This document shows positions 9,231 to 39,795 of a stretch of DNA of 56,833 nt, piece by piece. The number at the start of each line of letters is the position of its first letter. Position 1 is the first letter of the stretch. Under the pieces are notes generated by a model, which did not search any database, was not told the origin of the DNA, and saw only the letters and a list, made by a program, of their open reading frames with translations. A program made the position numbers and the translations under genes. Origin of the DNA: Candidatus Bathyarchaeota archaeon (GTDB lineage Archaea > Thermoproteota > Bathyarchaeia > Bathyarchaeales > DTEX01); NCBI GenBank assembly GCA_025059045.1, contig JANXEA010000006.1, forward strand, positions 1-56,833, in the 5' to 3' direction.

Positions 9231-9306
9231 GAACATGGGCTCCCTTAAAAATCACCATCTTCTCCAAACTTGCGGCGAGAACACAATTTCGAATATGGCA
9301 GGGGTT

Positions 9307-10056: not shown

Positions 10057-10117
10057 ATCCGCTCATCATACAGTTTGATGAATAGTGATGAATCTATCGA
10101 TTCTCAGCGAACCATAC

Positions 10118-10663
10118 TTACTTCTTCATTCTTCCGATTTCATAGAGAATTAGATCAGCTGCCTCTTCATGAGTTCTCGTGCCCGTATTGATTACCAGAT
10201 CATAGTTATTGGGGTCAAGCCAATCTTTCTTGAAGAGTTTTTCAACCATATGCTTTCTTTCACTATCGCTTACACGAATTGCCTCCTCTGCTTCTTCGAT
10301 AGTTATATTTCTGGCCTTAGCTATATGTCTCACCCTTTTCTCTTTCGGGGCTACTAGAAGAACTTTAAAGACGTTAGGTTTATCAAGAAGCATAAATGCG
10401 GATCGACCCTCGATAATTAGATCGCCTCTTTTAATCAACTCGTCAATCTTACTTCTAATCATTTTGTCCAGATCAATCTCTCCTGATGCTACATGCTGCT
10501 CGAATTCCATAAATGACTCTGTGGGGTGAACTCCTCTAAACTCCACTACTATGCTCTTGATTATTGCTGCAGAGTTTATGAAATTTATTCCGAGCTTGGT
10601 TGAAAGTATAGTTGCAACCTCTGTGCAACCGGCTCCTAACTCGCCAGATAGGGCTATTATCAT
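10118..10663 (-). CDS. Cytidylate kinase-like P-loop protein
   Basis: About 181 residues, starting at the ATG at 10663. A GGAGGT ribosome site lies 7 bases before it, and that site overlaps the only upstream alternative (GTG at 10678), ruling the latter out. The N-terminal MIIALSGELGAGCTEVA is a P-loop of the kind seen in the cytidylate-kinase-like family, where the usual GK[ST] lysine is replaced (here Cys). A LID-like segment with RNITIEEAEEAIRVSDSERKH and an Arg-rich stretch follow. It probably phosphorylates a nucleotide or related small molecule, but the altered P-loop means CMP kinase activity should not be assumed. Confidence 0.75.
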   Translation of the reverse strand: MIIALSGELGAGCTEVATILSTKLGINFINSAAIIKSIVVEFRGVHPTESFMEFEQHVASGEIDLDKMIRSKIDELIKRGDLIIEGRSAFMLLDKPNVFKVLLVAPKEKRVRHIAKARNITIEEAEEAIRVSDSERKHMVEKLFKKDWLDPNNYDLVINTGTRTHEEAADLILYEIGRMKK

Positions 10664-12325: not shown

Positions 12326-12629
12326 GGGTGCTCACCGCTAGCTCTAAGATGTCCGAGTCACCTGGATCCCTTATCGCGATTGCTGACAAGGGGAAAGGTT
12401 TGCCACAGAGCCTGCCGAGATCGATGCTTGTCCTCGGCGATACGACGATGGGGATATCGGAGAGTTTGCAGCAATATTCAATTTTATCCCTTATCTTTTG
12501 TGGGCAGTTAGATGAGAGTATGATGAGTTTTACCTTTCCTGTCGCTGCTCCCTGTAACGCGGAGTTTGCGCCGAACGCGACTTTTCCTGTCTTTACAGCC
12601 ATAACGATTGAATTGTCTAGGTCAGCCAC
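12318..12629 (-). CDS. rpl30e: 50S ribosomal protein L30e
   Basis: 103-residue RNA-binding protein of the L7Ae/L30e fold. GKVAFGANSALQGAATGKVK and LIILSSNCPQ near the N-terminus match the family and kink-turn-binding surface. The GTG start overlaps the rpoA stop codon, and its end overlaps the nusA start by 8 bases. This position between rpoA and nusA is its standard archaeal place. Confidence 0.95.
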   Translation of the reverse strand: MADLDNSIVMAVKTGKVAFGANSALQGAATGKVKLIILSSNCPQKIRDKIEYCCKLSDIPIVVSPRTSIDLGRLCGKPFPLSAIAIRDPGDSDILELAVSTLV

Positions 12630-15600
12630 TATTCTGCCCCCCTTTCACCTTCCATCACATTAGCAGACATATAAATATCTACGAGACCCGTCCCTATAGG
12701 TATGGCTTGTCCAACTATGACGTTCTCTGTCACACCTTTCAATACATCTCTTTCTCCCTTGACCGCCGCTTCGACAATGTTAGGAACCGTGATCTCAAAT
12801 GAAGCTCTTGCAAGCACGCTTGCCTTGCCCCCGCTCACTCCGTGCCTTCCAATCTGACGTACGCTGCCAGTTGCAGTCATGATATCTGCGACAAGCATTA
12901 TGTGTCTCAAGTCTACGTCCAATCCCTGTTCCTCGAGTACGCTGCTCGCCTCCCTTATCAGAGCGTTCCTCGCCGCTTCGATGCCAAGCGTCTTTGCTAT
13001 CTCATGAATGTTGTTCGTCAGCGTCCTTTTAGGATCAACACCTTCTACTTCTAGCACCTGAGATAGATTTGAGCCCTCTGTTCTGATAACCCATTCTCCC
13101 TCTTCCTCGGTCACCAAGATCCTTTTTATTCCAGGAATTCCTTTAATATGGTAAGCTGATATCTGCTCCAACAGTTTCTTCGGATTCTGTTGTTTTTTAG
13201 GCCCTATAGTAATAGCTTCTCCCTTCACCTCTACAGAAAATCTAGGAGAAACAAGCGCATTGATGACGTCATCATGTGTGACCCCACGCTCCTCCATCCT
13301 CTTCTTATCAAGCTTAACTATTATATTGTTCGTCTCGACATCTAGCAGTATACTTTCCGCAACATCTTGGATGGTTGTGTATAAGATTTTTCTCGCTACC
13401 TCTGTCGCTTTCTCCCTGCTTTTCCTGTGATCCTGGTCTAGATGTATCAGCATGGTCGGTGTCGACGGCTCCCTCCTTGCGTCAACGATCTCTATCAGAC
13501 GTGGAAGACCTAATGTGACATTCTGCTCTCTTACACCAGCGTAGTGAAAAGTCCTCAGCGTCATCTGTGTGCCTGGTTCACCTATTGATTGAGCGGCTAC
13601 TATTCCAATTGCTTCGCCAGGCTCGACTAGTGCACGCTTATAATGTTCAACGGTAAGTTTGACAGCTAGGTCTACGCCTTCTTCAGAGAGCTTGGATTTG
13701 TAGAGGTTCCTCCTGAGCTCTTCAACAAGAAGTGGATTTAACTCATTTTTGACCTCTTCAAGCCGCTTCTCTATATAATCCTCTCTTGCTCCTTTCCTAG
13801 TTTCCATCATCAGCTCTATCTGTTCGATTAGCCTAGCAACGTTCACAGCTTTCCCATGGTCACTTTTTGCGGGATCAACGCCGTCCTCACCATACTTAAA
13901 TTGGATAATGTCGCCTGCAGAGTTTCTGACTGTTCCGTCGTATTCGACGCGAAGATGTTCCATCGCGTTTATCAGCCGCCTCTGCATGTACCCGCTCTGT
14001 TGGGTCCTGACAGCCGTATCGACTAATGCGTCTCTGCCCACCATTGTGTGGAAGAAGAATTCAAGAGGATTCAGCCCATCTCTGAATGAGGAGTATACAA
14101 AACCTTTTGCCCTCGGCGAGGCATCTCTCATTTTGAAGTGGGGCAAAGCTCTCTCGACATATCCACGCTCAATTCTTTTTCCACGAACCGATTGTTGACC
14201 TAGGCATGCAGACATTTGACCGATGTTTATTAATGAGCCTCTTGCACCACTCCTGGTCATTATAACGCCGGAATTCTCCATTTCAAGATCCGCGTCAGCG
14301 ATTTTTCCTGCCTTTTCGAAAGCCTTTGAAAGCTCATTCATGACGTAGATCTCAAAAGAGTCTATCAGGCTCTGTCCCGGAAGTCGCTCCAGTGTTCCTT
14401 CCTGTAGCGCTTTCATGAAGGATTCAACCTTCTTCTCGGCCTGCTTGATGGTCTGCTGGATTTTGGATTTCGCGTCAGAGGAGAGGTCGAGATCCTTGTA
14501 TGAGTAGGAGAAACCTCTCATGGTTATGAACCTTGACAATAGTCGACTCATCTTGTCAAGGAAGATTCTTCCAGTTTCAGTTCCGTAATCCTTTATTATT
14601 CTATGGAGAAGGCTTTCAGATTTCTCGGCGCCTATCGAGTTCTTGTCTATTACCCCGCTTAGAAGCTTCCCATTCTTTATTATGACGTAAGCATCGTAAG
14701 GACATTTTTCACGTATACATACATCACAGTTGCGGCATATGCTTGCTTTTAGCGCGTAATTCAGGTCTTTTGGGAGGAATAGACTGAATATCTGCTTCCC
14801 CGTCCAGATCTCTTTCGGCTCCTTGATTGCAGGTTCAGGTAATTCGCCCTCATAATTCGCAGAAATTAGCAGCTCGCATACTTCTTTCTTTGTGAACTGG
14901 GTCGTCTTCTTCGTGAGGAGATAAGCAGCGGTTATGAAGTCTCTTATCGCGCCAATTATTGGACCTCCAAACCTGGGTGATAGAATGTGATTCTGCACTT
15001 CCATCAGTATTAGGGCCTCGGTTTGCGACTCTTCACTTTGTGGAACGTGAAGGTTCATCTCATCTCCGTCGAAATCCGCATTATAAGGCGGACACACGCA
15101 GAGGTTTAATCGGAAAGTCTTGTAAGGCAAGACTCTAACATAATGCGCCATTATTGACATCCTATGCAGTGACGGCTGCCTGTTAAATATAACGATGTCT
15201 CCGTCTCTGAGGTGCCTCTCGACAATGTAGCCAGGCTCCAAAGCTTCCGCTATTTTCTCCCTGTCGGTGACGAACTCAAGCCTTACCCTTTTTCCGTCAG
15301 GCCTAACAATATATAATGCGCCGGGGTAATTTTCAGGACCGTTCCTGACAAGTTTCTTCATCTCCTCAATATTCCACTCTGTAACTCTCTCTGGAACTGA
15401 AAGTTTCATTGCTACGGTAAGCGGCACTCCAACCTCATTCACGTTAAGGTTTGGGTCTGGACTTATCACTGTACGGGCTGAGAAATCTACCCTTTTACCC
15501 GATAGGTTGCTTCTAAACCTTCCCTCCTTACCTTTTAGGCGCTGTGATAGTGTCTTGAGCGCTCTCCCAGACCTATGCCTAGCCGGCGGGATCCCGGAAG

Positions 15601-16456
15601 ACTCGTTATTAAAGTATGTTGTGACATGGTATTCTAGAAGTTCGGAAAGGTCTTGGATGATAAGTGTGGGAGCTCCAGCCTCAATATTCTCCTTGAGGCG
15701 TTCATTTATCCTTATTATGTCTACAAGCTTATGTGTTAGATCGTCTTCGGATCTTATTCCCGACTCAAGTGTTATTGATGGCCTTACATAGACTGGTGGT
15801 ACTGGAAGGACTTGGAGAATCATCCATTCCGGTCTAGCGTTTTTGGCGTCAAATCCTATCAGTTCGAGGTCCTCATCAGGGATCCTTTCAAACCTCTCTC
15901 GAATCATGCTTGCAGTTAGCCTTTGTGCGCCCTCCTCTAGATGCTCATAAAATATTGTGGGCTTAACAAACTCTATCTTATGCTGCTTGGTCGCGCAAAA
16001 TGGACATTCTCTAGTCTTTTTGGCCTTTTCAAGAACAGAATTGTAGAATTGGGAGGGGACTGATCCCATAATCTTCTTAACTCGTTCAATCTGTCTCCTC
16101 GCTCTCGTTATTGTCTTCTCTGGCAGGAGTATGCGTCCACAATTCTTGCAGAAAGCCTGTAATAAGTCATGAATCTTCTTTGTAAATTCGACATGTATTA
16201 TTGGGACAGCGAGCTCTATATGTCCAAAATGCCCCGGACATCTTGCGGCAGTATTGCCGCATGTTCTGCATCTTTGGCCGGGCTCAAGTACCCCCAGCCT
16301 GTTATCCATCAGTCCTGAGGGAATTACGGCTCCATCCTCATCATAGGTGTCCGCCGTTTTTATTTCAACCACAGACATCTTTCTGATAACTTGCGGCGAA
16401 ATTATTCCAAATCGGATTTCGTCTATCAGTTTTTCAAATGTCTCTTCAATTGACAT
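12629..16456 (-). CDS. rpoA: DNA-directed RNA polymerase subunit A, unsplit (A'+A'')
   Basis: Largest catalytic subunit, 1275 residues. The clamp zinc site CRTCGNTAARCPGHFGH lies near residues 62-78 and a second Cys set follows (CPFCATKQH). The catalytic loop NADFDGDEM places DFDGD at residues 461-465, which chelates the active-site Mg2+. The C-terminal part corresponds to A'': GEAIGIVAAQSIGEPGTQ and the trigger/jaw region LRTFHYAG are continuous with A'. In most archaea A' and A'' are separate genes; here no stop or restart separates them, a form known from Thaumarchaeota-related lineages. It starts on the base after the rpoB stop. Confidence 0.97.
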   Translation of the reverse strand: MSIEETFEKLIDEIRFGIISPQVIRKMSVVEIKTADTYDEDGAVIPSGLMDNRLGVLEPGQRCRTCGNTAARCPGHFGHIELAVPIIHVEFTKKIHDLLQAFCKNCGRILLPEKTITRARRQIERVKKIMGSVPSQFYNSVLEKAKKTRECPFCATKQHKIEFVKPTIFYEHLEEGAQRLTASMIRERFERIPDEDLELIGFDAKNARPEWMILQVLPVPPVYVRPSITLESGIRSEDDLTHKLVDIIRINERLKENIEAGAPTLIIQDLSELLEYHVTTYFNNESSGIPPARHRSGRALKTLSQRLKGKEGRFRSNLSGKRVDFSARTVISPDPNLNVNEVGVPLTVAMKLSVPERVTEWNIEEMKKLVRNGPENYPGALYIVRPDGKRVRLEFVTDREKIAEALEPGYIVERHLRDGDIVIFNRQPSLHRMSIMAHYVRVLPYKTFRLNLCVCPPYNADFDGDEMNLHVPQSEESQTEALILMEVQNHILSPRFGGPIIGAIRDFITAAYLLTKKTTQFTKKEVCELLISANYEGELPEPAIKEPKEIWTGKQIFSLFLPKDLNYALKASICRNCDVCIREKCPYDAYVIIKNGKLLSGVIDKNSIGAEKSESLLHRIIKDYGTETGRIFLDKMSRLLSRFITMRGFSYSYKDLDLSSDAKSKIQQTIKQAEKKVESFMKALQEGTLERLPGQSLIDSFEIYVMNELSKAFEKAGKIADADLEMENSGVIMTRSGARGSLINIGQMSACLGQQSVRGKRIERGYVERALPHFKMRDASPRAKGFVYSSFRDGLNPLEFFFHTMVGRDALVDTAVRTQQSGYMQRRLINAMEHLRVEYDGTVRNSAGDIIQFKYGEDGVDPAKSDHGKAVNVARLIEQIELMMETRKGAREDYIEKRLEEVKNELNPLLVEELRRNLYKSKLSEEGVDLAVKLTVEHYKRALVEPGEAIGIVAAQSIGEPGTQMTLRTFHYAGVREQNVTLGLPRLIEIVDARREPSTPTMLIHLDQDHRKSREKATEVARKILYTTIQDVAESILLDVETNNIIVKLDKKRMEERGVTHDDVINALVSPRFSVEVKGEAITIGPKKQQNPKKLLEQISAYHIKGIPGIKRILVTEEEGEWVIRTEGSNLSQVLEVEGVDPKRTLTNNIHEIAKTLGIEAARNALIREASSVLEEQGLDVDLRHIMLVADIMTATGSVRQIGRHGVSGGKASVLARASFEITVPNIVEAAVKGERDVLKGVTENVIVGQAIPIGTGLVDIYMSANVMEGERGAE

Positions 16457-23065: not shown

Positions 23066-24466
23066 TCATCCTGAAATAAGAGTTGTCACACTTTCGGCTG
23101 GAAGCGTGGCTCTAAGCGAGTTTTCTGAGACTATTATATTGCCAAGGTATGTGCAGTTTTCAGATGAGGATGTCCGATACTGATGAAACGATCTAACGTT
23201 TAGGTTTTGCAATGTAACCGTCACGTTGAATGAGGTTTTGGCCCTATTTATTGCGATTATTGTCACTCTTCCATTCTCCTCGTTTATATAGGCCGATGCT
23301 AAGACATCCGTGTTTGTTGCGGTTGCCAATATTCTTCTTGACCCAGGCGCTATGAACTTAAAGAACTGCTTGACTGCGTAGTATTTTGGCGTAATCTCAT
23401 AGTTGGTGCCGTCTTGTCTAATGCTTATCAGCCCTGTTCCTCTGTACCAGAAAAGTTCCCACACAATGTATACTGATGCGTTTGTATGGGTTAGCACGTT
23501 GTGGATGTGCTGTACTGTGTATATTGCTTCTTTGTATGTTCCCGCATCCTCTGTTCCCAAGTAGCTGTATTCCGTCTGCCAGATAGGCCTCCCATACTGG
23601 GCGCCGAGCCTTGCCACCGCCTGCATATAGGCAATTTTCTCATCCGGAGCGAAGAATGATGTATCGTAGTTGTGGAAGGCAAATATGTCAACGTATTTTG
23701 CTGCTCCCGGATCAGCCATGACTGTTGAAATGTAAGTTGCCGCTGCGGAGACACCTGAGGTTTCGGGCATCAATATCTTCGCATTTATTCCCTCACGCTC
23801 AAATTTTGCGCCAACCCTCTTTATAACATCTCTTAACTGTTCAGGCGAATAGGTGCAGGTCTCCCAACTGGCTGTATAATCAGGTTCATTCTGTATGCTT
23901 ATCCAACTAATCTCTATCCCATGAAAGTTTTTATAGCCTATTATGTACGCGGCCAACCACTCTGCAAATTCGTCGTACATTTCCGGCAACAGGTATCCTC
24001 CACCTGTCTCGTTTCCAGTACTCTTCATCCATGCCGGGGGACTCCAGACCGAAGCGACAAACTCAGTTACGCCCCTCTTCTTTGCCTCCAGCGCATTCCA
24101 GACTTGATCTAAATCAGTGCTGAAGTTAAAGGCACTCCAATTAAAGTGGTTCGGATCTTCATCGTCATTTACTTTCTCGATCTGAGTCCAAACCCTCAAC
24201 CTATACATTGTGATGCCGAGATCGGAGAAAAGGAGATCTGTAGCCTCCGTTCTTTTCGGTTCCATCAGATTTCGCAAGAGACCCTCATAATATGCGCCTG
24301 CACCCCCAAATGCTTCTATGACCTGATATTTCCTTGAACCGTCAACCGTCAGGGATACAGTTCCATCCTGTTTTTCGCCTGTCCGCATCATTATCCAGTA
24401 CGTCATAACAGATGCCGAGACCAAGATTAACACGGCAACTAATATTGCTAATTTCCTACCACTCAT
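23066..24466 (-). CDS. Exported glycoside hydrolase family 30 enzyme (xylanase/glucanase type)
   Basis: 466 residues. A signal or anchor helix occupies ~5-27. Mature sequence opens with the GH30 beta-strand region (TVSLTVDGSRKYQVIEAFGG). The (beta/alpha)8 barrel carries ISIQNEPDY with acid/base Glu194 and PIWQTEYSYLG with nucleophile Glu299. A C-terminal beta-sandwich of GH30 type closes the chain. It probably cuts xylan or a beta-glucan at the cell surface, since no cytoplasmic form is apparent. It is encoded alone on the minus strand, divergent from the GH42 gene. Family firm; whether glucuronoxylan, beta-1,6-glucan or other is inferred. Confidence 0.88.
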   Translation of the reverse strand: MSGRKLAILVAVLILVSASVMTYWIMMRTGEKQDGTVSLTVDGSRKYQVIEAFGGAGAYYEGLLRNLMEPKRTEATDLLFSDLGITMYRLRVWTQIEKVNDDEDPNHFNWSAFNFSTDLDQVWNALEAKKRGVTEFVASVWSPPAWMKSTGNETGGGYLLPEMYDEFAEWLAAYIIGYKNFHGIEISWISIQNEPDYTASWETCTYSPEQLRDVIKRVGAKFEREGINAKILMPETSGVSAAATYISTVMADPGAAKYVDIFAFHNYDTSFFAPDEKIAYMQAVARLGAQYGRPIWQTEYSYLGTEDAGTYKEAIYTVQHIHNVLTHTNASVYIVWELFWYRGTGLISIRQDGTNYEITPKYYAVKQFFKFIAPGSRRILATATNTDVLASAYINEENGRVTIIAINRAKTSFNVTVTLQNLNVRSFHQYRTSSSENCTYLGNIIVSENSLRATLPAESVTTLISG

Positions 24467-26929: not shown

Positions 26930-28867
26930 TTAATATGGTGCAGCCCACATTCCTCTGGCAATTATCGCAACTGCGCTTCCAGCAACCACCATGATACCTT
27001 CACCTAGGAGAACACCCGCGTACATAACCCCTCTATATTTATCCCACCACTCTTTTCCCATCATCTTAGCAATCAGCCGCCCGATGATGGCTCCGATAAA
27101 TGTGGCGACGGGATATGGTGGAGCTGACGATAACCCGCTAGCGATACCTACAGCTGTGGCTGCGAATCCAACGCGATCAGCCACTGCATATATTATGCTT
27201 CCTGCCAGGAGGCCATATAGGATTCTGGTAGGCTCAAAGAACACCCCTGCTTCTGGTGACACTAATAGAGATTGAAAGGTTGCTTGAACAGGCCACGACA
27301 TCAGAACGCCTGGATAAACATAGGAGGGGATAGGCGCGATGCTCCAAAGTGACTGCATGAAAAAGAAGCCAGCGATCAACGCTATTGGGAAGATTATATA
27401 CTGCGCCTTTACGTAATCCATGAGCTTAGTCTTCGTCATCTCACATATCTTGAAGGGTTCTGCCGCAGGTGAAGGTGCATAGATCGGCACGAACCATGCG
27501 TTTATACCTGGATAGCCGGATGCTCTAAACGTCATTTCCCTCATGTAGGGTACACCAACTGATACTCCTAGTCCTTGAGCTCTGGCAACAATTAGCATCG
27601 AAATGAATGGCCAAACAACATTTAAGAATATCAATATAGGTAGTGGGCAATCCGGCGCAAGCCACCAATCGAAAAGCGATAGCCCCAGAGTTGCGATAAT
27701 AAACGGTATTATGATCCACCAGACAGAGAAACCAAGGGGAGATTCTGTCTTCAATCTCCTCAATGCGCTAAAAGTCCTTCTCAGGATGTTTGGGTGTAGT
27801 ACTAGGGGCATGATCCCAACAGCTATGCCCATTCCTATCATTGGCATAGCCCAAACGTGGAGGACGGATCGTTGCCATAGAGTTTGTATCGGCATTCCAT
27901 AGACATATTCGTTTGCAAGCCCCGTTATCTTATTTGATACGAGCAAGTAGTTGCCTACAAGATAAGCCGTAATTGAACCAATTAAGCTTCCCAAGACTAC
28001 CTTAAAGGGTATTATAAATCCAACAGTCATAATGGCTAAATCTGTAGCTATGCCAAAGGAGGCTCCAGGGAGGGCAAGTTGAATAAAACTGTTGAGGTCG
28101 ACCCATGGCACTGGCACTATAGATATGGTTACGCCCCAAAGAACTGTGCTTAGAAGCGGTGCCACATATATTATTAAGCCATATATTGCTGCGAATGAGG
28201 CAGTAGCCACCATTGCTCCCATTCTCTTCCAGTCTCTTTGAATTAATGTCTCAGTAGCTTCTACTACTGGCCTAGCTGTCGGAAAGGGCAGCTGCTCCAC
28301 ACGGGCATAGAGTATATAGGCTAATATTGTCAAGCAAATGTCGCCGAACATAGCCGCAACGTAAAAGGCTATTGTGTTCAATAATATTGGCATCCATTCT
28401 GGGTGTATAAGAGTCCTAGCCATAAAGACCTCATAGGACGGTGAATAGAATGATGGGATTTTGTCAGCAATTCCAAAGGCTTGAGAGTATGGAGAATATT
28501 TAAGGTAGGCTTGGTATATCCAGCCAGGGTGGCTGAGAGCACCCATCTCAGGAGCTAAAAACCACCAGTATTTTATTGTTTGACCAGATGCAAGGTATAT
28601 GATTATCGCCTCGTTTATTGTTAAGGGGTTTCCGGTTATAGAGCATATCTCAATGAAAAGCAGGATTGTAGCCCACTGGATTGCGCCCATAACTGGAACT
28701 CCGCCAATCTGGAGATGTAAATAGGCAAGTCCAGGCTGAAAGACAAAAACTATGTACATTAATGCTAGTAGCGACCGCCATGTGAGGCCTCCTTTAAAAA
28801 AGGATATAAGAGTAGTTGTTGACGAATTGGATCCTTTTTTCTCATCACTGGATTCTCTAGACGTCAA
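26930..28867 (-). CDS. OPT-like polytopic membrane protein (transporter candidate), paralogue 2
   Basis: 645 residues with about 14 hydrophobic helices. Near residue 190 it carries EQLPFPTARPVVEATETL, which resembles the LPFPTG-type motif of the oligopeptide transporter (OPT) superfamily; large uncharacterised families of this kind (I believe DUF6784/DUF6785) share it. The 705-residue protein at 34471-36588 has a related motif (EALPYPLATANS) at the same depth, so the two are probably paralogues. The TTG start overlaps the stop codon of the giant pseudo-peptidase gene (TTGA), which implies translational coupling and joint function. Cargo unknown: peptides, glycopeptides, metal chelates or saccharides are all possible. 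Confidence 0.75.
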   Translation of the reverse strand: MTSRESSDEKKGSNSSTTTLISFFKGGLTWRSLLALMYIVFVFQPGLAYLHLQIGGVPVMGAIQWATILLFIEICSITGNPLTINEAIIIYLASGQTIKYWWFLAPEMGALSHPGWIYQAYLKYSPYSQAFGIADKIPSFYSPSYEVFMARTLIHPEWMPILLNTIAFYVAAMFGDICLTILAYILYARVEQLPFPTARPVVEATETLIQRDWKRMGAMVATASFAAIYGLIIYVAPLLSTVLWGVTISIVPVPWVDLNSFIQLALPGASFGIATDLAIMTVGFIIPFKVVLGSLIGSITAYLVGNYLLVSNKITGLANEYVYGMPIQTLWQRSVLHVWAMPMIGMGIAVGIMPLVLHPNILRRTFSALRRLKTESPLGFSVWWIIIPFIIATLGLSLFDWWLAPDCPLPILIFLNVVWPFISMLIVARAQGLGVSVGVPYMREMTFRASGYPGINAWFVPIYAPSPAAEPFKICEMTKTKLMDYVKAQYIIFPIALIAGFFFMQSLWSIAPIPSYVYPGVLMSWPVQATFQSLLVSPEAGVFFEPTRILYGLLAGSIIYAVADRVGFAATAVGIASGLSSAPPYPVATFIGAIIGRLIAKMMGKEWWDKYRGVMYAGVLLGEGIMVVAGSAVAIIARGMWAAPY

Positions 28868-31800
28868 CTAGAGACTCCACCTCCTTTTACCTCCAATTTT
28901 TTCTTTTCTAATTCCGAGATCCTTTCTTCATATTTTCTTCTCTCTTCATCTGAGAAACTCCGCCATAGTAATATTTGTTTCCTTAGTAGATCAATAAATT
29001 CTCTTCCAAACGTAACCCATGACCCTTTTGGTCCCGCTGTGCGTCTCATATCTATACGAATCATATGTCTTCCGACATCTTTTTCTTTTACATCACTGAT
29101 CCTAGTATCCTGGATTATGCCAAGCTCATAGGGAACAAGTGTTGCCTCAAAGTGTAATGTTCTAGTCAGCAGTTTCGGGGAATCTTCTTCAATGTAATGT
29201 ATCGGAGAAATTGTGCGAAACACCTCTGAATCCGGGGCCATATGAACTTCTGCAAGTTCGTTTAAGAACGCTAGCATTCCGTTAGCTTCCCCATCGCGTG
29301 TCGTTGTAAAGGGAAGTGTGACATCCCAAATATCTCCCCTCGGCGAAGGTATCTTCCATTTACGTTCAAGCGATGGCGTTACAAGCTTCGATGCTACAAA
29401 TATGGGGTATATCGTGACTGCGATCGTGACCCCCATCATGAGCGTCACGGCATTTACCACCATAGTTGACCCGGGGTTCAGCTGGATTCCGACCCCACGC
29501 GATGCAAAAATCATACCTGCAAGATAGCCTCCTGCGCCGCCGAGAATAGCGTAGGTGATGGCTTCCGCGAAAAATAGGAATCCTATATGGAATGGGGAGA
29601 GCCCTACAGAGCTTAGGGTGAAGATGTCTCGCTTTCTTTCTTCAATTGTTCCAAGCATAAGATTTAGTATGACCATTGAAGCTATGACCAGAGGGATAGA
29701 CTGGGTCTCCCAACCAGCAAGCGTCATAATGTTCTGTGGGAAAAGACTGTAAACTGTTCCGTTGAATCCTATGTAAAGCGGGATTGAATATCCAGAGTGT
29801 ATCGTCTCCTTATAAAATTCTTCAGCCATACCTAATATGAGAGTCTTGTTATTCTCGTATTCCGGCTTCATTTTTATTGCAACGCTCACAATCATTCCCT
29901 TAAAGGCGCTAAGGACGGTCTTATATGGGATAAGTATTATCTCGGGCTCGAATACATCAGTTGCAGGTTTTTCTGGATTTGTACCGAAGTAAAGTCTTGA
30001 CCCGTATCCTGGGAGCCTAGTATCCATCGGCGTATACGCACGGTTGTCGAGATCGACAATCTTATTATATATTGTTTCATCCAGTACTCCTATCACCGTA
30101 AATGTAAAGCCGCTCAGCTTGATCTTGTCTCCTACTCGAACACCAAGTTCCTTTCGTAGTTGAGTACCGATAATCGCAACATAGGGATCCATGTCTTTCT
30201 CGAACCATTTTCCCTCCACTAATCCTGCGTTGGGTGAAGTTATTGTAACGTTAACCTCTTGCGGCGTAACTCCTAGAACAGCTAATATTGGAGTGCTGGA
30301 CCATCTACTTCCATCCAACGTTGTTAAGTACCAACCTCTCCCAATGGTTCCCATGTAAGCCCATGCTCTTGGGGCGAGTATTGCAACATCTGAGAACCGG
30401 CCCTCTAGCTCTGTTAGCAATACTTTCCCTAACTGTGGCCCAGTCTGGAAATAGCCTGTTCCCTCATACTCCCCAAATGCCGCGTTTCCATAATTCCACT
30501 GATGAACAAATATGCCTGTATATGTGGCGGGCCAAGCTTGTACGCCAGGCACTATAGCTCTTAATGCACCTGTTGACGTGAACAGAACGACGCCGAGAGT
30601 GATTAATAGAATGGAGACCAATATGAGTGATGTTCTGAGTCGCCTCTTTCTCATATTGCTGACGCCTAACGAGAAGCTGAGAAGAGCAACGCTTGTTCTT
30701 GTCATCTCGATCCAATGGACCCCCATGACTTTCTCCCTCATTCTTTTCACGGCATCTATGAATGAGGTGTAAATTATTCCTATTAATGGAGCGGTCATTA
30801 ACAAGACTACGAAACCTACTATCACCATTAGAATATTACTTGCTAATACGAATCCTGGATGCGTCCCAGACAGGATTATTAATGGTACAACATATCCAAT
30901 TATAGAGGTCAGGATACGCTTTATTCCTCTTGTTTGAGCTATTAACCTCTCAAATATTAGTGCAAACGGCACAAGAACGACTCCGAAGAATGTTATAGCG
31001 TTAACCGAATCTTCAGTCATTTTTCTTAATTCTAGGTAACGTTCTCTTTCAGTTATTAATAGTTTATATTGTAAACTTTCTAGTTCAGTATAATTATATG
31101 TCTGAAGGGCGCGAAGTGCTCTGTTAAAGAGCTCCTCCGACCCAGCAGAAGAAATTGGAGGTGCAATCCCGGAGCGCAGCAGCCGTCCTTCCCGCATCTG
31201 ATTCTGGCCGCGCCAATCAATCGCCGCTTTTAGAGTTGTATGAGTAATTGTTATCTGCTCTCCTATTCCCACCACATAGCCTGCGCCTAGGGGATTATCT
31301 GCTGAGGAGTTCGTCAACGCCATGAAGGGGTATAGTAGAGTGTAAGTGGTTCGAGTTAGTATCTCTAGAGGCGTATTTGCAGGAACATGTAGAACTGCGA
31401 CACTCAGTCCCTGCCCACCATGCATATAGCCCTCCCAACTCCATGTCTCTACAGCCGAATGAGTAGCAAATTCGTTCACTAATATCTGGGCCGCCTGATC
31501 CTGTGGCCCATTTCTATAATATATATCCCAAAAATCGAATAGGACAATGTTGCCGCATTCAAAGAGAGTGTATGATCCAAAGGACTGTGGATTTACACCT
31601 AAGCCGCTTGGCACATAAGTGGTCTGAGTTCTACCTGCACCTGTTCCTCCTCCAACAGCGGATGATGGTCCCCAATATGGGCCAAACCCAGGAGCATGAG
31701 TTATCTGTCCTGTTGTCTCATTCAAAACAAAAGCTCGGACCTGATATGGAAGGCCACCTATCTTTCCTGTTAATCTCTGCCCATGCATCAATCCAGGTAT

Positions 31801-33573
31801 ATATACATGACCCTTTTCATCAGCAGTAACATAGACCCATGGGAAGTTTTGCCATTGAGATAGGGCTCCGCTGTCAGGCGGCCATATCCTATAAATGAAA
31901 AGAGCGTTTGGAACAGGGTCATACCACGCCTTTGTCACATTATAAATATTGATGTCGCCTTCGACATCAGTCCACTTCGGATTGTCACCTGCCGCAAATC
32001 CAGGTTGCCACTTCCTAATCAGATCCTGAGCTGAGCCGGAAACCCCAAGATCAGTATTCACTATTACATAAACATATGGATATATGGCTCTCAATTTATA
32101 CTCTATTATTTCCCAATCCAGTTTATCAGGGGTATCAAGAGGCGTATATGTATACTTCTCGAAAGCCAGATAACTTGCCCATGTAAATGCCGGACCACCC
32201 AAATTTACGAGGGGGTCACTATCACTGTATCTATATGGTCCACCAATTAGATCTGACCATGTTATCCCAAATTTTGATCCTAACGCGTCCCTTGTGATCC
32301 TAGCTTTGTCAGAAGTCTCAGAATTGGGATCATATGATAACTCCGGCATGTTCAACCTGGTAGCTAGATCCGGAAGTATTACGGTAAAGAACCATTTGTG
32401 GAACGCTGATGCTGCATCAAAGAAGGAACCTGGACCTTCACCCCAGCCCCAAAGGGCAGCTCCACGAACATTCGGCATAATGAAGCGATTTACATCATTT
32501 ATATCGAAGTTCATTTGTAGGTGAACCCTGCTTCCCCAATTCTCCCATCTGTCAATTATATAGTCTTTCACAAACCATCTTGAACCTGAGACACCTTGGT
32601 TTGTACCTGAGAACGCGATAAAAACTAGCGTATACATATTGGAACCCCTATGACTTGCAAAATATTTGGCCAGCTGCAGAACTACGGAGATGCCTATGGC
32701 CTCACGGGCTCCAGGCGCAAGGGATGGAACATATGAGAAGCTATCATATGAAGCCGTGATCAGGATATAATTATCTGTGCTGCCTGGCAAATATCCGATC
32801 ACATTTCTTGCTTGAACCTGTCTAAACTTCATGTTTGAAAACAGTGTTACGATTGAGCCTTCTTGGCCAATCAATTTTTTAGCATCATCTGCTTTTACAT
32901 AGAGTCTAGGGAAGTAGTACGCCATCGTATCCAAAACCTTCATGCTGAACTCTTGTATGCTTGAGTCCTCAGGCTCTATGAAGATGACGGCTTTGGCGCC
33001 ATATTTCGCTGCAATTAGCCAGTTGTACTGGCTATTCATCTTCATTAAGACTATGCTGCCTTCGACTTTCTTTCCGTTAAAATCCTTTACCTCTCCTTCG
33101 CCTACATAGATAAGTCTACCACTGATGCCGCCAGGGGGCGTCTGCACTGGACTAACCATATTTGGCATGAATGGGAAAAGAGTGACATTATCCCCGTTCG
33201 GAAGTATTAGACATGCACCTTCATCTATCGGTACAGTTATATTATAATAATGATAGCTTACATCTCTCAGGCCATACCTTTTGAACTCATTGTAAATGTA
33301 CTCAGCTGCCTTGTAATTGCCCAGATACCCCGTGAATCGCGTACCAAAATTGCTAAACGTTGCTACGTGACCCCGTAGTTCTGTTATATTCAGAGCTTTA
33401 AGAGCAGGTGTGACATAGTCAAAGGTTGGAGTGGTCATAGGTCCGATGTACGATGATCCAGAAACCGAGCGTAGAGCCCCCCCAATTGAAACAAATGTTA
33501 CAAGAATCAGGAGGAAGCAAACTATAATGCTAGACGAATTAAATAACTTTCTCGTGAAGAAAAGGGTTCCCAT
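28864..33573 (-). CDS. Giant pseudo-M28 peptidase / FtsX-like permease fusion
   Basis: 1569 residues from the ATG at 33573 (a TTG 51 bases upstream is an alternative). In order: signal helix (~8-35); an M28-like ectodomain with inserted PA domain (~60-500); a further extracellular region (~500-830); membrane helices (~850-930); an FtsX/MacB-like unit starting near 975 with periplasmic-type domain and three more helices to ~1395; and a charged cytoplasmic tail. M28 zinc ligands are replaced: ASYDS where AHYDS is expected (~274-278), GAREAIG for GADDNASG, SGTNQG for the EE motif, and SDSDPL for SDHxPF. It should therefore bind, not cut, peptides. No FtsE/MacB ATPase is nearby. Leaderless start is plausible. 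Confidence 0.82.
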   Translation of the reverse strand: MGTLFFTRKLFNSSSIIVCFLLILVTFVSIGGALRSVSGSSYIGPMTTPTFDYVTPALKALNITELRGHVATFSNFGTRFTGYLGNYKAAEYIYNEFKRYGLRDVSYHYYNITVPIDEGACLILPNGDNVTLFPFMPNMVSPVQTPPGGISGRLIYVGEGEVKDFNGKKVEGSIVLMKMNSQYNWLIAAKYGAKAVIFIEPEDSSIQEFSMKVLDTMAYYFPRLYVKADDAKKLIGQEGSIVTLFSNMKFRQVQARNVIGYLPGSTDNYILITASYDSFSYVPSLAPGAREAIGISVVLQLAKYFASHRGSNMYTLVFIAFSGTNQGVSGSRWFVKDYIIDRWENWGSRVHLQMNFDINDVNRFIMPNVRGAALWGWGEGPGSFFDAASAFHKWFFTVILPDLATRLNMPELSYDPNSETSDKARITRDALGSKFGITWSDLIGGPYRYSDSDPLVNLGGPAFTWASYLAFEKYTYTPLDTPDKLDWEIIEYKLRAIYPYVYVIVNTDLGVSGSAQDLIRKWQPGFAAGDNPKWTDVEGDINIYNVTKAWYDPVPNALFIYRIWPPDSGALSQWQNFPWVYVTADEKGHVYIPGLMHGQRLTGKIGGLPYQVRAFVLNETTGQITHAPGFGPYWGPSSAVGGGTGAGRTQTTYVPSGLGVNPQSFGSYTLFECGNIVLFDFWDIYYRNGPQDQAAQILVNEFATHSAVETWSWEGYMHGGQGLSVAVLHVPANTPLEILTRTTYTLLYPFMALTNSSADNPLGAGYVVGIGEQITITHTTLKAAIDWRGQNQMREGRLLRSGIAPPISSAGSEELFNRALRALQTYNYTELESLQYKLLITERERYLELRKMTEDSVNAITFFGVVLVPFALIFERLIAQTRGIKRILTSIIGYVVPLIILSGTHPGFVLASNILMVIVGFVVLLMTAPLIGIIYTSFIDAVKRMREKVMGVHWIEMTRTSVALLSFSLGVSNMRKRRLRTSLILVSILLITLGVVLFTSTGALRAIVPGVQAWPATYTGIFVHQWNYGNAAFGEYEGTGYFQTGPQLGKVLLTELEGRFSDVAILAPRAWAYMGTIGRGWYLTTLDGSRWSSTPILAVLGVTPQEVNVTITSPNAGLVEGKWFEKDMDPYVAIIGTQLRKELGVRVGDKIKLSGFTFTVIGVLDETIYNKIVDLDNRAYTPMDTRLPGYGSRLYFGTNPEKPATDVFEPEIILIPYKTVLSAFKGMIVSVAIKMKPEYENNKTLILGMAEEFYKETIHSGYSIPLYIGFNGTVYSLFPQNIMTLAGWETQSIPLVIASMVILNLMLGTIEERKRDIFTLSSVGLSPFHIGFLFFAEAITYAILGGAGGYLAGMIFASRGVGIQLNPGSTMVVNAVTLMMGVTIAVTIYPIFVASKLVTPSLERKWKIPSPRGDIWDVTLPFTTTRDGEANGMLAFLNELAEVHMAPDSEVFRTISPIHYIEEDSPKLLTRTLHFEATLVPYELGIIQDTRISDVKEKDVGRHMIRIDMRRTAGPKGSWVTFGREFIDLLRKQILLWRSFSDEERRKYEERISELEKKKLEVKGGGVSS

Positions 33574-33697
33574 ATTTATCAGATCTAAATATTGACAGTT
33601 TTCTAGAATAAAAAGATTTTCCAAGATTTTGAATTTAAGTTCACTACGTAATATGTATGGTCTTAAGTTTTTGAAATGGTTCTAATTTCTAGTGTGC

Positions 33698-34387
33698 TCA
33701 ATTTCCTTTTTTAGGTTGAAACTCTTCCCCAACAGTTCTGAAGATCTCATTGAAGAGCTGAATAATTGAGTTCGCCTTCTTCTCTATGAATGGCATTTCC
33801 TGGAATAGGGTTGACAAATTGACAAGCCATGTGACACGGTCAGGATTCTCGTAGTATGCCGCAATTTTTTGATATATTGAAGCATTTGCAGTGTCAGTTT
33901 CACTTAATGTCTCAGTTCCTACTTGTCCTGAGTACAGACAGATGGACAGATCTGAGGGATTAATTGATTTTATGAGGTCAACTACCCGCATTTTCTGTTT
34001 AAGAATATTGCACAATCTCTCGGATATCTCAAGCATTGGAATATATTTCTTCAGCCTATCAAGATCAGGATGAGGTTTGAAGACCACTTCTTTCCTTAAT
34101 ATTCCTTTGACCTCTATTACACATTCCATACCTTTGAGCATTCGGTATAACTTCACAGATTCGTCATTCATTTCACTTTTCTTAAACATCTCATGAATAC
34201 CGATAATATGCCACTTAGTCTCACCAAATCCGAAGATGCCTACAACACTTTGTCTAAAGGCTAAGCCATGAATAAAAGATGGCGGCTTTGGATCGGCTAA
34301 AATTGTACCTCCACTAGTAAGAGTATAGTTTTGAATGTGTCTACCAAAGACTCTTATGATGAATGGTTTTTCTTTTCCGCCCATCAT
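33698..34387 (-). CDS. Unknown soluble protein between the fusion and an OPT-like gene
   Basis: About 229 residues from the ATG at 34387; TTG (34393) and a second ATG (34384) are alternatives. No family recognised. The N-terminal half is beta-rich (FIIRVFGRHIQNYTLTSGGT), the C-terminal half helical; no signal, membrane helix or metal motif. A minus-strand TATA-like TTTATAATTAAAAT at about 34407-34421 lies 20-33 bases upstream of the ATG, so it probably has its own, nearly leaderless transcript. Its position suggests an accessory or regulatory role for the transport genes, but nothing in the sequence proves that. Confidence 0.6.
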   Translation of the reverse strand: MMGGKEKPFIIRVFGRHIQNYTLTSGGTILADPKPPSFIHGLAFRQSVVGIFGFGETKWHIIGIHEMFKKSEMNDESVKLYRMLKGMECVIEVKGILRKEVVFKPHPDLDRLKKYIPMLEISERLCNILKQKMRVVDLIKSINPSDLSICLYSGQVGTETLSETDTANASIYQKIAAYYENPDRVTWLVNLSTLFQEMPFIEKKANSIIQLFNEIFRTVGEEFQPKKGN

Positions 34388-34445
34388 TCCCAATGTGACC
34401 CTAGATTTTAATTATAAATTGTATTTAATCGATATAAGTTTTAAC

Positions 34446-34462
34446 AAAAAAAGGGAAAAAAA
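34446..34462 (-). terminator. Double poly-T terminator after the 705-residue OPT-like gene
   Basis: On the minus strand, 8 bases after the stop codon, two runs of seven T separated by CCC form a typical archaeal oligo-T terminator. It implies that the upstream transporter is not read through into the next gene. Confidence 0.65.
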
Positions 34463-34470
34463 GGGTCATT

Positions 34471-36588
34471 CTAGTGTGGAGACAAGCCTATTGCAACATT
34501 GTTTACAACCACTGCCAAACCAAGCGAAGCTGCGACCCCAACCATGAGCGGCATTGCTTTCTCTTCGTATAGTTTCAATCCGCCAACCTTTAATATAATC
34601 CACTTTAGCACCAACGCAATGATACTTGGGAAGAATAGAAAATCGACGACCCATAAGAAACCTAGGGCCACACCAGCAGCGTTCAGCGGGAACCATGGAA
34701 ACTTTGATCTTAAGATGTAGATGCAGCTTATTCCGATGGCGGTAACCACAAACTGCACCCACTGACCCGCCACGGGTTGGGCAATAACGCCTCCTCGCCA
34801 GTAATCTCCAACTACATTAGTGCTGCCATATGTCGGACCTCTCTGGAAGTAATTGCTTGGCGAGCCGTCATATGCAAACTCTTTCAGTCTTGTTGCGCCA
34901 TACATGCACCAGAACTGTAGTAGCATGGGCGGTGTGATCGCCGCTCCAACAACTGTTGCGATGATTGCTCCTATCAATATGTATTTTGCGTGGACACGGT
35001 TAAGGGAGGCTATCTTGAAGTAGTGCAGCAGATATGTGAAGGGCGCGGCTCTGAAGACCTGGTCGAACCAGCTTACATCAGCGCTCAATACTAGATATCT
35101 CGTCTTCAGGTCGCTTATGTAGAATGGTGACCCTGTATCCGCGAACCAGTAAGTTTTCATCCCCTCGTTCCAGTTGTGGGCGAACATGTTACAGTTTATT
35201 GGGCTCACCAATACGCCGAACTCTGCCTCCGTTCTCGCCGATCCTATCATGTACATCCAGCCCGTTGCCACTACCCAAATTATGCCAGCAATGTAAGGCA
35301 AGACTCCAAACTGTTTGCCACCGGTTGTTCTGAAATCCCACATGAAGACATACCATAGCACACAAATAATATATCCGATGACTAGGTATCTTAGCTTCAT
35401 TGGCTCTCGTTTCTCAACCTCAGGGCTCCCTTTGCCGAACACTGCCTTGATCATATCGATTACTTCTGCTCTATGAATCCATAGTGGGAAGTATACTAGG
35501 CCGAACATTGCGCCAAAGGCTGAGAAGGCTCTAGCGCCCCAATCACGCGTCCAAGCCTGCATCATTGGCCCCGTAAAGCCTCTCCAATTGGTTGTGACAT
35601 CGTTGCCATAGGATCCAGCTTCCCATATGCCCAAGTAGACCGGGAGACATTGCAAAAGGTAGCATGCGAAGAAGGCGCCTACGATATAGCTGAGCAGGGT
35701 GGTTGTCGGCACTAGGAAGGCTCCCGCTACCCACATGGGTTGCATGTTAAATGTTAAGCAAACATTATAAAGGCCTAAGCTATTGCGCATCCCCGACAGA
35801 TTTGTCTGAGGCGGATAGACCCAGTGTTCAGGCCACCTACTTAGACCAAGCCATGGAAGAGTATCTACGCCCCACCATGGAATGAGCAGGATGAAACCTA
35901 CAACAAATCCAATCCAAAGATAGATATTCGCTAAGATTTTAGGTGTCCCTTTCTCTGTCTTTTCGTATACCTGGTTTATAACCATCGAGTTGGCTGTTGC
36001 CAAAGGATATGGTAAGGCTTCAATGTCTATCCACATTCTCCTCCATATTGAAGCTAAGAAGACATATGACAAGAGCAGGGGCATCACTGTCAGTATACTA
36101 ACTGTAAGGGATGGAATCCATTTATCCCAAGGTACTGGTCCACCATACATCCAAGAGTTCCAGTACTCAGCAACATTAGGGTCAGGACCGAAGATCCAAT
36201 TGCGTTCCGCACCATAACCAAGCGTCCACCTGTGGAATGCGGATGCACCCCGCGCAACGCCCAACATTGTAACTGTCCACATAAGACCTTGGTACAAAGG
36301 AAACATCCATACCGCCATCATCATGGCTAGGATAACTATTAGTTCCCCTTTTCTAACTCTTGGTCCTATCAGTGCTGCTACAGCCGAAGTTATCAACGGA
36401 AGGAAAAGAACCATAGTAAATTCAGTACACCAGTTTCTAGTCCAGACATCGCCCATTTTGAAGTCAAACCATGCACCAGCTCTTGTGAATAGCGTAAAGT
36501 AGCCTATGAACGCCAACAATATAACGACACAGACGACACCGATAAGATAGGTCACTGGCCGGATTTTCTCTTCGATTATCTCTGACAT
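34471..36588 (-). CDS. OPT-like polytopic membrane protein (transporter candidate), paralogue 1
   Basis: 705 residues, about 14-15 hydrophobic helices. The segment EALPYPLATANSMVINQVYE near residue 190 parallels the OPT-like motif in the 645-residue protein at 26930-28867. Unlike the partner it has a large charged loop in the middle (~375-400, GSPEVEKREPMKLR). ATG at 36588 is preceded by GGTGG and by a TATA-like TTTATAAA at 36623-36630, giving a very short leader; a double poly-T terminator follows. It is predicted to sit in the membrane and move an unknown solute. Confidence 0.75.
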   Translation of the reverse strand: MSEIIEEKIRPVTYLIGVVCVVILLAFIGYFTLFTRAGAWFDFKMGDVWTRNWCTEFTMVLFLPLITSAVAALIGPRVRKGELIVILAMMMAVWMFPLYQGLMWTVTMLGVARGASAFHRWTLGYGAERNWIFGPDPNVAEYWNSWMYGGPVPWDKWIPSLTVSILTVMPLLLSYVFLASIWRRMWIDIEALPYPLATANSMVINQVYEKTEKGTPKILANIYLWIGFVVGFILLIPWWGVDTLPWLGLSRWPEHWVYPPQTNLSGMRNSLGLYNVCLTFNMQPMWVAGAFLVPTTTLLSYIVGAFFACYLLQCLPVYLGIWEAGSYGNDVTTNWRGFTGPMMQAWTRDWGARAFSAFGAMFGLVYFPLWIHRAEVIDMIKAVFGKGSPEVEKREPMKLRYLVIGYIICVLWYVFMWDFRTTGGKQFGVLPYIAGIIWVVATGWMYMIGSARTEAEFGVLVSPINCNMFAHNWNEGMKTYWFADTGSPFYISDLKTRYLVLSADVSWFDQVFRAAPFTYLLHYFKIASLNRVHAKYILIGAIIATVVGAAITPPMLLQFWCMYGATRLKEFAYDGSPSNYFQRGPTYGSTNVVGDYWRGGVIAQPVAGQWVQFVVTAIGISCIYILRSKFPWFPLNAAGVALGFLWVVDFLFFPSIIALVLKWIILKVGGLKLYEEKAMPLMVGVAASLGLAVVVNNVAIGLSPH

Positions 36589-37774: not shown

Positions 37775-38899
37775 ATGCCATTCTCGAAAATGGATTTGGC
37801 ACGTGGAACCATTCTTGGAATAATAGTAGGGGTTCTTTTGGGATACTTTGCAAGAACGGGAGAATTGGAAGGTATGAAAACAAGAATATCGAACCTTGAA
37901 TCTCAAGTTGGACAATTGAGAAAGTTTGCGCCATCATTGAGAACACTTGCTGAAAAATGCGGAATATATATTGGTGCAGCAGTTGAACCCGACTACCTAA
38001 CTATGGATTATGCTGAAACGCTTAAACGTGAATTCAACATGGTAACGACTGAGAACGTCTTGAAGTTCGGACCAGTCCATCCTCAGCCCACCGTATATTC
38101 ATTTGCAGGAGCAGATCGGGTGATTGAGTTTGCTGAAGCGCATGGTATGAAGGTGCGGGGGCACACTCTCGTTTGGCACTCTCAGCTTCCCAGCTGGATT
38201 ACAGCAGGACGGTACACTCGAGATGAGTGGATTCAGATTCTAAGGGATCACATAATGACAGTGGTTGGTCGGTACAGAGGACGAATTTATGCTTGGGACG
38301 TTGTGAACGAGGCTATAGATGACTCCGGTGCTTTAAGAAATACAATATGGCTACAGAATATTGGTCCAGAATATATCGAGTTGGCTTTCAGGTGGGCTCA
38401 TGAGGCCGACCCAAATGCGCTTCTGTTCTATAATGACTATGGCGCTGAGGGCTTAGGTGTAAAGTCAGATGCTGTATACAATTTGGTTAAAGGACTTTTA
38501 GAGAAGGGGGTGCCAATCCATGGTGTTGGCCTCCAGATGCACATAAGCGCAGACTCTCCTCCATCCCCGCAAAGTGTTGCCGCTAATATAAGGCGCTTAA
38601 ATAATCTTGGTCTAGAAGTACACATAACGGAGATGGACGTGCGTCTGAGAACGCCTGCCTCACAGTCTGATTTGATCAAGCAAGCGGAAATATATCGAGA
38701 CATTTTAGACGTATGCCTCTCTGCTGAGAAATGTACAGCTTTTGTCATGTGGGGGTTCACAGATCGTTATTCGTGGATACCAAGCACATTTGGCGGATAT
38801 GGCTCGGCGCTCATTTTTGATGAGAGATACGAGCCTAAACCAGCCTATTACTATATTCTTCAGAAACTTATCGAATACTCCAGCCAAAGAAACGTTTAG
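37775..38899 (+). CDS. Membrane-anchored endo-1,4-beta-xylanase, glycoside hydrolase family 10
   Basis: 374 residues. An N-terminal membrane helix (~10-26) and short coiled-coil stalk (~28-50, LEGMKTRISNLESQVGQLRK) anchor a single GH10 barrel (~60-370). WDVVNEAI carries acid/base Glu179; HITEMDV carries nucleophile Glu286; RGHTLVWHSQLPSW (~128-141) is the substrate-binding stretch. It cuts internal bonds of xylan by the retaining mechanism and should face outside the cell. No carbohydrate-binding module is fused. It ends 5 bases from the convergent caspase-like gene. Together with GH30 it supplies the extracellular step of xylan breakdown. Confidence 0.95.
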   Translation: MPFSKMDLARGTILGIIVGVLLGYFARTGELEGMKTRISNLESQVGQLRKFAPSLRTLAEKCGIYIGAAVEPDYLTMDYAETLKREFNMVTTENVLKFGPVHPQPTVYSFAGADRVIEFAEAHGMKVRGHTLVWHSQLPSWITAGRYTRDEWIQILRDHIMTVVGRYRGRIYAWDVVNEAIDDSGALRNTIWLQNIGPEYIELAFRWAHEADPNALLFYNDYGAEGLGVKSDAVYNLVKGLLEKGVPIHGVGLQMHISADSPPSPQSVAANIRRLNNLGLEVHITEMDVRLRTPASQSDLIKQAEIYRDILDVCLSAEKCTAFVMWGFTDRYSWIPSTFGGYGSALIFDERYEPKPAYYYILQKLIEYSSQRNV

Positions 38900-38904
38900 A
38901 TCAT

Positions 38905-39795
38905 CTACGGAACATTCCGAGCCTGAAACAATCTTAGTATCTTGTATGCTACGCCGACCCCTAGCACAATTATCGCCGCTGCGTAAAAAATAATATCCAC
39001 ATTTAGATTCTCATCTATTTTCAATTCATTAAGACGAAGATCCCCATCCCCAAAATACACGAGCCTCGCGCCGCTTACCGGATCCGGAACTGTGAATGCT
39101 AAAGACTGAGTAACTGTTAAACCTCGCGTGCAAATAATGTGGAAAAATAGACCATCCATTTTTACACCATGCTCCACACCTACAAGACAAGACCAGCCGA
39201 TAAAGCATTTAGCGCCAAGCTTTAGAAAAACATCGGCTAAGCTAGAGTTATTGCCAGAGAAGCATGCATCTATAAATACTAATGCATCACTGTACTGGCC
39301 GTCGGTACCGTAAAAGTAAAAGAATTCAGGGGTAATGTAGTAATATCCCTTTAAGCTTTCATCCAGTTCGAAGCATCCTATACGGCCTGATTCAATGTCG
39401 TCTTTATAAATCTCCTCTTTCCCTAGCTCTTTCTTTTCCCGTGTGAAGATCACGACCTTATTCGAGTCTAAGAAGCCATGAGTATTAATGTAAATAACAC
39501 CGTAACCCTCATTGTCAATTCTTTTGAGAAGATCTAAAGTAACATCTTCATTTTTATAATAATCCACAGAGTAGCCTGCCCGCTCAAGATTATATATGAT
39601 ACTCTGAATGGTTATGTTATATACGTTGAATAGCGGCATATAGTAACTGCCCAGATCGCTAAACTCTCTATTGAACGGATCTATAACTATCGCTTTATTC
39701 GATCTGGGAGTGCTTCCCGAGCCCGCCTCTACAAAATTTACAATGATAATCAGAATAATGGAGATAATGATTAAAGACCCGTTTCTCCATGCCAA
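38905..39795 (-). CDS. Membrane-anchored caspase-like (clan CD) protein
   Basis: 296 residues. Signal or anchor helix (~8-23), an alpha/beta domain, and a C-terminal membrane helix (~268-288). The fold has the clan CD peptidase dyad: IYINTHGF with His106-Gly107 and ALVFIDACFSGNN with Cys178, each after a hydrophobic strand as in caspases, metacaspases and legumains. The first beta-alpha unit (AIVIDPFN...LERAGYSVDYYKNED) also matches. The catalytic domain is predicted to lie outside the cell between two anchors. The start is a TTG with AAAGGTT upstream. Substrate unknown; a surface-protein processing role is possible. Confidence 0.75.
   Translation of the reverse strand: MAWRNGSLIIISIILIIIVNFVEAGSGSTPRSNKAIVIDPFNREFSDLGSYYMPLFNVYNITIQSIIYNLERAGYSVDYYKNEDVTLDLLKRIDNEGYGVIYINTHGFLDSNKVVIFTREKKELGKEEIYKDDIESGRIGCFELDESLKGYYYITPEFFYFYGTDGQYSDALVFIDACFSGNNSSLADVFLKLGAKCFIGWSCLVGVEHGVKMDGLFFHIICTRGLTVTQSLAFTVPDPVSGARLVYFGDGDLRLNELKIDENLNVDIIFYAAAIIVLGVGVAYKILRLFQARNVP

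Follow-up and report, generated by a model that had tools for sequence, protein, structure and literature searches.

What does a giant membrane protein with a peptidase-like ectodomain do between two OPT-like transporters, and what would power it? The question is raised by a 56,833-nucleotide stretch of Candidatus Bathyarchaeota archaeon (assembly GCA_025059045.1, contig JANXEA010000006.1; the whole stretch is called the window below), where four genes follow one another on the minus strand in the order OPT_A, P0003, giant, OPT_B. The original prediction, made from the letters alone, took the giant and the two OPT-like proteins for parts of an undescribed uptake system. We find that the module of OPT_A, giant and OPT_B is a real, widespread and conserved system, and we judge with slightly better than even confidence that it represents oligosaccharide importers of one family, which each have a dead-peptidase receptor and an OPT pair of their own and share one type VII ATP-binding cassette (ABC) energiser. 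Hot-spring archaea carry several copies of the module, usually beside genes for digesting plant polysaccharides, and these copies seemingly share one separately encoded ATP motor. The genes of the locus are:

34471..36588, minus strand: OPT_A, 705 amino acids (aa), multi-pass, OPT superfamily (Pfam DUF6785, 4e-22; DUF6784, 4e-10)
33698..34393, minus strand: P0003, 231 aa, with homologues at four further giant-bearing loci (L033, L034, L053, L072)
28864..33624, minus strand: giant (pseudo-M28/PA/FtsX), 1586 aa if started at TTG, 1569 aa if started at the codon-18 ATG
30991..33393, minus strand: modelled part of the giant's ectodomain, residues 78-878
26930..28867, minus strand: OPT_B, 645 aa, OPT-fold transporter

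Recurrence of the Module

The 1.42-Mb genome (98% complete) contains six loci with OPT_A, giant and OPT_B, the paralogues sharing about 29-32% identity with the window copy in the giant and 26-36% in OPT_B. Outside this genome, the three-gene module recurs across Bathyarchaeota, Brockarchaeota, Thermofilales and Armatimonadota. A genome scan recovered relatives in Bathyarchaeota, Brockarchaeota, Thermoprotei/Thermofilales, an Alkanophagales bin, Armatimonadota, Latescibacterota and Poribacteria. Twenty-four archaeal loci have a full 6-kb flank to either side, and among them OPT_A was present in 19, OPT_B in 22, both in 18 and at least one in 23; six of seven bacterial loci had at least one OPT gene beside the giant. 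Given six paralogous modules in one genome and conserved neighbourhoods elsewhere, the locus is not a product of chance, and the fusion keeps company with both OPT genes in related genomes. Over 54 loci, the distances between giants and between OPT_B proteins were strongly correlated (r = 0.90; permutations reached at most 0.14), and so they were among the six paralogues of this genome (r = 0.76), where the correlation cannot come from species phylogeny. The coordinates, strand and gene order of the original prediction are correct; in the window, the frames of the giant and OPT_B share 4 bases at the giant's stop, and the TTG start of OPT_B is preceded by a GGAGGTG motif. A 221-aa OPT_A remnant at L024:3841-4506 (C7:49840-50505), with a C-terminus like that of the OPT_A of L025, suggests that a module was recently duplicated and then decayed.

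A Dead Peptidase Fused to One FtsX Unit

The giant consists of TM1 (TM, transmembrane segment), an ectodomain of pseudo-M28, PA and beta-domains, TM2-4, an FtsX unit and a C-terminal domain of ~160 aa; averaged hydropathy places its TM segments near residues 33-46, 878-890, 908-920, 932-951, 1003-1015, 1306-1321, 1354-1369 and 1388-1403. Its Pfam matches (Peptidase_M28, 5e-13; MacB_PCD, 3.5e-11; FtsX, 8e-7; a weak PA, 0.0025) agree with the original description of a 1569-residue fusion of an M28-like ectodomain with PA insert to an FtsX/MacB-like permease. The AlphaFold2 model of residues 78-878 (mean predicted local distance difference test score, pLDDT, 83.6) has the M28 fold, and the ectodomain matches M28 aminopeptidases both by profile (2ek8, E 2.8e-35) and by structure (Foldseek E 1.8e-24).

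This fold is catalytically dead throughout the family. Aligned with its M28 relatives, the window protein has S292 for the first zinc-binding His, E308 for the bridging Asp, N342 for the Glu and Y493 for the last His, so that only D374 of the five ligands is retained, as the original prediction had stated; the catalytic Glu position holds T341. The catalytic Glu-Glu pair is absent from 58 of 58 aligned full-length giants, and at most three of the six site residues survive in any member, while D294 is invariant. With this pair gone from every one of the 58, we reject peptidase activity. Among non-enzymatic relatives with a known structure, the nearest are transferrin receptor 1 (TfR1; profile E 3.7e-17), nicalin (5.5e-15) and nicastrin (5e-4).

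The FtsX unit comprises TM5, a MacB_PCD ectodomain and TM6-8 with an ERxRE coupling motif, located where the coupling helix of FtsX/MacB proteins touches the ATPase. The motif, E1329-R1330-x-R-E/D ... G1341-L-S-P1344, is near-invariant (R1330, G1341 and P1344 in 58/58). In hhalign comparisons the C-terminal unit matched a short FtsX protein, described below, with a probability of 98.9%, and the N-terminal four TM helices showed no FtsX homology (0.1-0.7%), which led us to reject a self-sufficient double FtsX like YbbP. The giant has a single FtsX unit with the coupling motif intact. As only the C-terminal unit is FtsX-like, the giant would require a second FtsX half, a role for which the short FtsX is the most evident candidate. 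FtsX proteins of ~1000 aa akin to the giant's C-terminal part, without M28, were also found (L026:1461-4511, L021:15699-18722, L028:9016-12027); one of them has a CarboxypepD_reg domain, and the type occurs also in relatives, in G196 beside a short FtsX.

The OPT Pair

OPT_A and OPT_B are homologous across 600 columns in profile-profile comparison (E 3.8e-45), and the label of twin OPT-like proteins is therefore correct. The window OPT_B itself had no Pfam match above threshold, and PF03169 (OPT) was matched by 26 of 53 members of its family (best 1.1e-15). A sequence search of PDB with OPT_B gave no match; in the fold search its AlphaFold2 model (pLDDT 89.1) matched significantly only structures of barley Yellow stripe 1 (template-modelling score 0.67-0.73, E 2e-8). 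OPT_A is assigned to the OPT fold by its homology to OPT_B.

A Candidate Energiser Encoded Elsewhere

The original prediction reported no partner ATPase nearby. This holds locally, no LolD-like ATPase being found among the open reading frames of the window, but not beyond it, as candidates occur in bacterial operons, beside the module in several archaea and elsewhere in this same genome. Operons of Armatimonadota and Poribacteria contain, in this order, the giant, OPT_B, a ~300-aa protein and a PqqD-like protein, and at several Armatimonadota loci these genes are followed by a short FtsX (about 200-240 aa; match to MacB, 3.5e-23) and then a LolD/MacB-type ATPase. The window's own genome has both genes on a separate contig (L109): a short FtsX at 9202-9834, 44% identical to the Armatimonadota gene, and adjoining it an ATPase at 9913-10647, 71% identical to its Armatimonadota counterpart.

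We surveyed 300 Thermoproteota genomes, drawn evenly, counting as short FtsX an open frame of <260 aa with E up to 1e-28. OPT_B was found in 47 genomes and the short FtsX in 47, always once, with both in 41 (Fisher P = 1.6e-37, a value inflated by relatedness; the pairing occurs in about 17 families). One short FtsX per genome stands against up to six modules. The ATPase directly follows the short FtsX in most genomes inspected. Two single-contig genomes have the whole set, namely the giant, OPT_A, OPT_B, the short FtsX and two ATPases, within about 25 kb, and in one family (f36) some 10 kb separate the short FtsX from the OPT pair. At L068 the gene immediately upstream of OPT_A and giant encodes an ATPase that is the sister of the unlinked ATPase of the window's genome (support 100/100). 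From the side of the giant, 34 of 44 carrying genomes match the short-FtsX profile, 33 as a short open frame and one (G315) as a 416-aa frame. Operons, adjacency and co-occurrence together point to this ATPase as the putative partner of the giant, and, given an intact coupling motif and the co-occurrence of the short FtsX/ATPase pair, we reject an ATP-independent permease as the default.

Some further observations concern these loci. One same-family genome, G043, has a decayed OPT_B with four in-frame stops (C53:24763-25272) and no short FtsX, and G261, of the same genus, lacks both, a correlated loss of the two genes. The pair of ~300-aa and PqqD-like proteins is conserved in bacterial operons and one archaeon (L041:17722-19050, L081:1783-3277), and a PqqD-like protein also precedes the short FtsX in L115 and L116. 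A small CPCG-motif protein, possibly another accessory part, adjoins the ATPase or the short FtsX in the window's genome (L109:6642-6977) and in a complete genome (L113:10200-10601).

Gene Neighbourhood and Substrate Class

Neighbours of the archaeal modules include pectate lyases, glycoside hydrolases (GH) of families GH10 and GH30, GH130, apiosidase, MocA oxidoreductases, xylose-isomerase-like barrels, L-fucose/arabinose isomerases and TrmB sugar regulators. Carbohydrate-type families with at least two members accounted for about 20 of 123 neighbours in comparison with 3 of 133 control proteins, and nearly all of these families were missing from the control set. The neighbours in the window are:

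23066..24466, minus strand: GH30-type glycoside hydrolase (Pfam); 59-61% identical genes adjoin the giant in the nearest relatives L030, L031 (split open reading frame) and L032
24857..26875, plus strand: GH42 beta-galactosidase-type protein (Pfam), adjoining OPT_B
37775..38899, plus strand: GH10 xylanase-type protein (Pfam E 8.8e-109), upstream of OPT_A
38905..39795, minus strand: 296-aa protein beyond OPT_A, weak ABC2_membrane_3 match (E 0.02); 46-50% identical homologues in L030, L031 and L032
42579..44102, plus strand: L-fucose isomerase family protein (Pfam)

The GH30, GH42, GH10 and L-fucose isomerase genes suggest xylan-type or related oligosaccharides for the window copy, and gene neighbours in general make oligosaccharides from plant-type polysaccharides the most likely substrate. 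The idea that the ectodomain is a peptide or glycopeptide receptor thus gained little support. Neither the module genes nor the neighbour families listed included a solute-binding-protein or type I permease family. ABC exporter genes near some modules (cluster 0) were set aside, their linkage not being consistent.

Three other features were recorded. The most frequent neighbour family at archaeal loci is URO-D (uroporphyrinogen decarboxylase family; 7/123), which fits no obvious sugar pathway. Pectate lyase-PKD and BamB-like PQQ beta-propeller proteins stand beside two modules (L022:5884-7473, L026:4658-7747, L026:7863-9482), one protein fusing both kinds. Elsewhere in the window, at 12629-16456, the largest RNA polymerase subunit (Rpb1 domains 1-5) is encoded as one unsplit 1275-aa frame, in which it differs from most archaea.

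Discussion

How might these parts work together? We propose that the dead M28/PA fold and beta-domains of the giant, outside the cell, would bind or gate the substrate, that the giant would supply one FtsX (type VII ABC) half-permease in the membrane, and that OPT_A and OPT_B would form a heteromeric OPT carrier, all presumably within one physical complex. The giant's FtsX unit would pair with the ectodomain-less short FtsX half-permease and the LolD-like ATPase, and these two, encoded once and away from the modules, may serve all six copies, like multitask sugar-ABC ATPases. ATP-driven movement of the FtsX pair would pass to the ectodomain, which would hand the substrate to the OPT pair or gate it, coupling ATP to OPT transport in the direction of import. 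In its strongest form, to which we give a little less than an even chance, the proposal describes a primary active importer of a new class: a two-subunit OPT carrier driven, via a dead-peptidase receptor, by a mechanotransmission ABC motor of the FtsX type, one motor being shared in trans by many modules, and used by archaea and some bacteria for plant polysaccharides instead of sugar ABC importers.

Several facts weigh against shared, ATP-driven sugar import. Characterised OPT carriers are thought to be proton-driven and to need no ATPase. Six of the 47 OPT_B genomes (G242, G259, G285, G228, G043, G005) have no short FtsX even at a relaxed threshold; some are drafts, fragments or carry decayed copies, but G242 and G285 are 91% and 92% complete. 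Conversely, in six genomes the short FtsX is present and OPT_B is not. Of the six modules of the window's genome, two (L021, L025) lack an obvious carbohydrate gene nearby, and the Armatimonadota operons are without obvious sugar genes.

Of the alternatives, the one that survives best, though we consider it unlikely, is that the OPT pair, whose fold is kept intact, is an ordinary ion-coupled carrier and that the giant, short FtsX and ATPase form a mechanotransmission machine that prepares the substrate outside the cell, stripping or presenting glycans or controlling secreted hydrolases as FtsEX does with cell-wall hydrolases. FtsEX and YbbAP-TesA indeed spend ATP on periplasmic partners and not on transport (PMC11491553, PMC12646458), and secreted-looking hydrolases adjoin some modules; most loci, however, lack a conserved secreted partner, and the giant, whose gene overlaps that of OPT_B tightly and which has diverged in step with it, seems to cooperate directly with the carriers.

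Peptides and metal-nicotianamine chelates are the best-known cargo of the OPT family. Together with the M28 ancestry of the ectodomain and the match of the OPT_B fold to an Fe(III)-DMA (deoxymugineic acid) transporter, this could indicate an importer of peptide, glycopeptide or metal-chelate, whose dead M28 fold would capture peptides for transport by the OPT carriers; we regard this as improbable, as the archaeal neighbours are carbohydrate-centred and the M28 substrate-binding residues around the metals have been replaced. An exporter or envelope-assembly machine (e.g. for glycolipids, S-layer glycans or secreted enzymes), near sugar genes as a handler of sugar-containing polymers, recalls the outward-moving relatives MacB and LolCDE and the PqqD-like proteins of the bacterial operons, but is very improbable: as many as six diverged copies, set next to genes of catabolism (isomerases, GH130 phosphorylase, TrmB) in a genome of 1.4 Mb, fit substrate-specific uptake better than assembly.

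Little is known of the uptake of polysaccharide-breakdown products by uncultured archaeal thermophiles, Bathyarchaeota and Brockarchaeota for example, and the present family, with six copies in 1.4 Mb of genome, probably provides a major route for nutrients. The proposed importer would join OPT carriers and FtsX-type motors, transporter worlds without known connection, and would give DUF6785 and DUF6784, families of unknown function, and many unannotated giant proteins a testable role; if ATP truly drives OPT transport, the system would be categorically new. No description of it was found in the open-access literature (DUF6785, OPT with FtsX, Brockarchaeota with OPT), subscription papers and preprints being outside that scope, and to this extent the claim that no uptake system of such make-up has been described stands.

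Each part nevertheless resembles something known. With the OPT superfamily (oligopeptide/Yellow stripe transporters, PF03169; DUF6785/DUF6784) OPT_A and OPT_B share fold and Pfam matches; to our knowledge, described OPT carriers act alone, whereas here two diverged subunits are usually tied to an FtsX-type giant. The dead M28 receptors transferrin receptor 1, nicastrin and nicalin have a similar M28 ectodomain, PA-containing or related, but that of the giant is prokaryotic and fused to an ABC half-permease. Type VII ABC systems (MacB, LolCDE, FtsEX, BceAB, YbbAP-TesA) share the FtsX/MacB_PCD domains, the ER-x-RE coupling motif and, through the putative partner, the LolD/MacB-like ATPase, and in YbbAP large ectodomains act together with a partner protein (PMC12646458). 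In contrast to them, the giant has one FtsX unit and an extra N-terminal four-TM part with a dead M28 ectodomain and without FtsX homology, the putative partner half-permease is ectodomain-less and encoded in trans, OPT carriers would be attached, and many modules would depend on one motor. A single ATPase for several substrate modules, as proposed here from gene counts, is known from MsiK of Streptomyces and MsmK of Streptococcus (PMC4519317, PMC4890002); those serve type I importers with binding proteins, whereas here the second half-permease would also be shared and the carrier is of OPT type. The individual folds are known and their combination is not, and we place the whole as a type VII ABC system with OPT partners.

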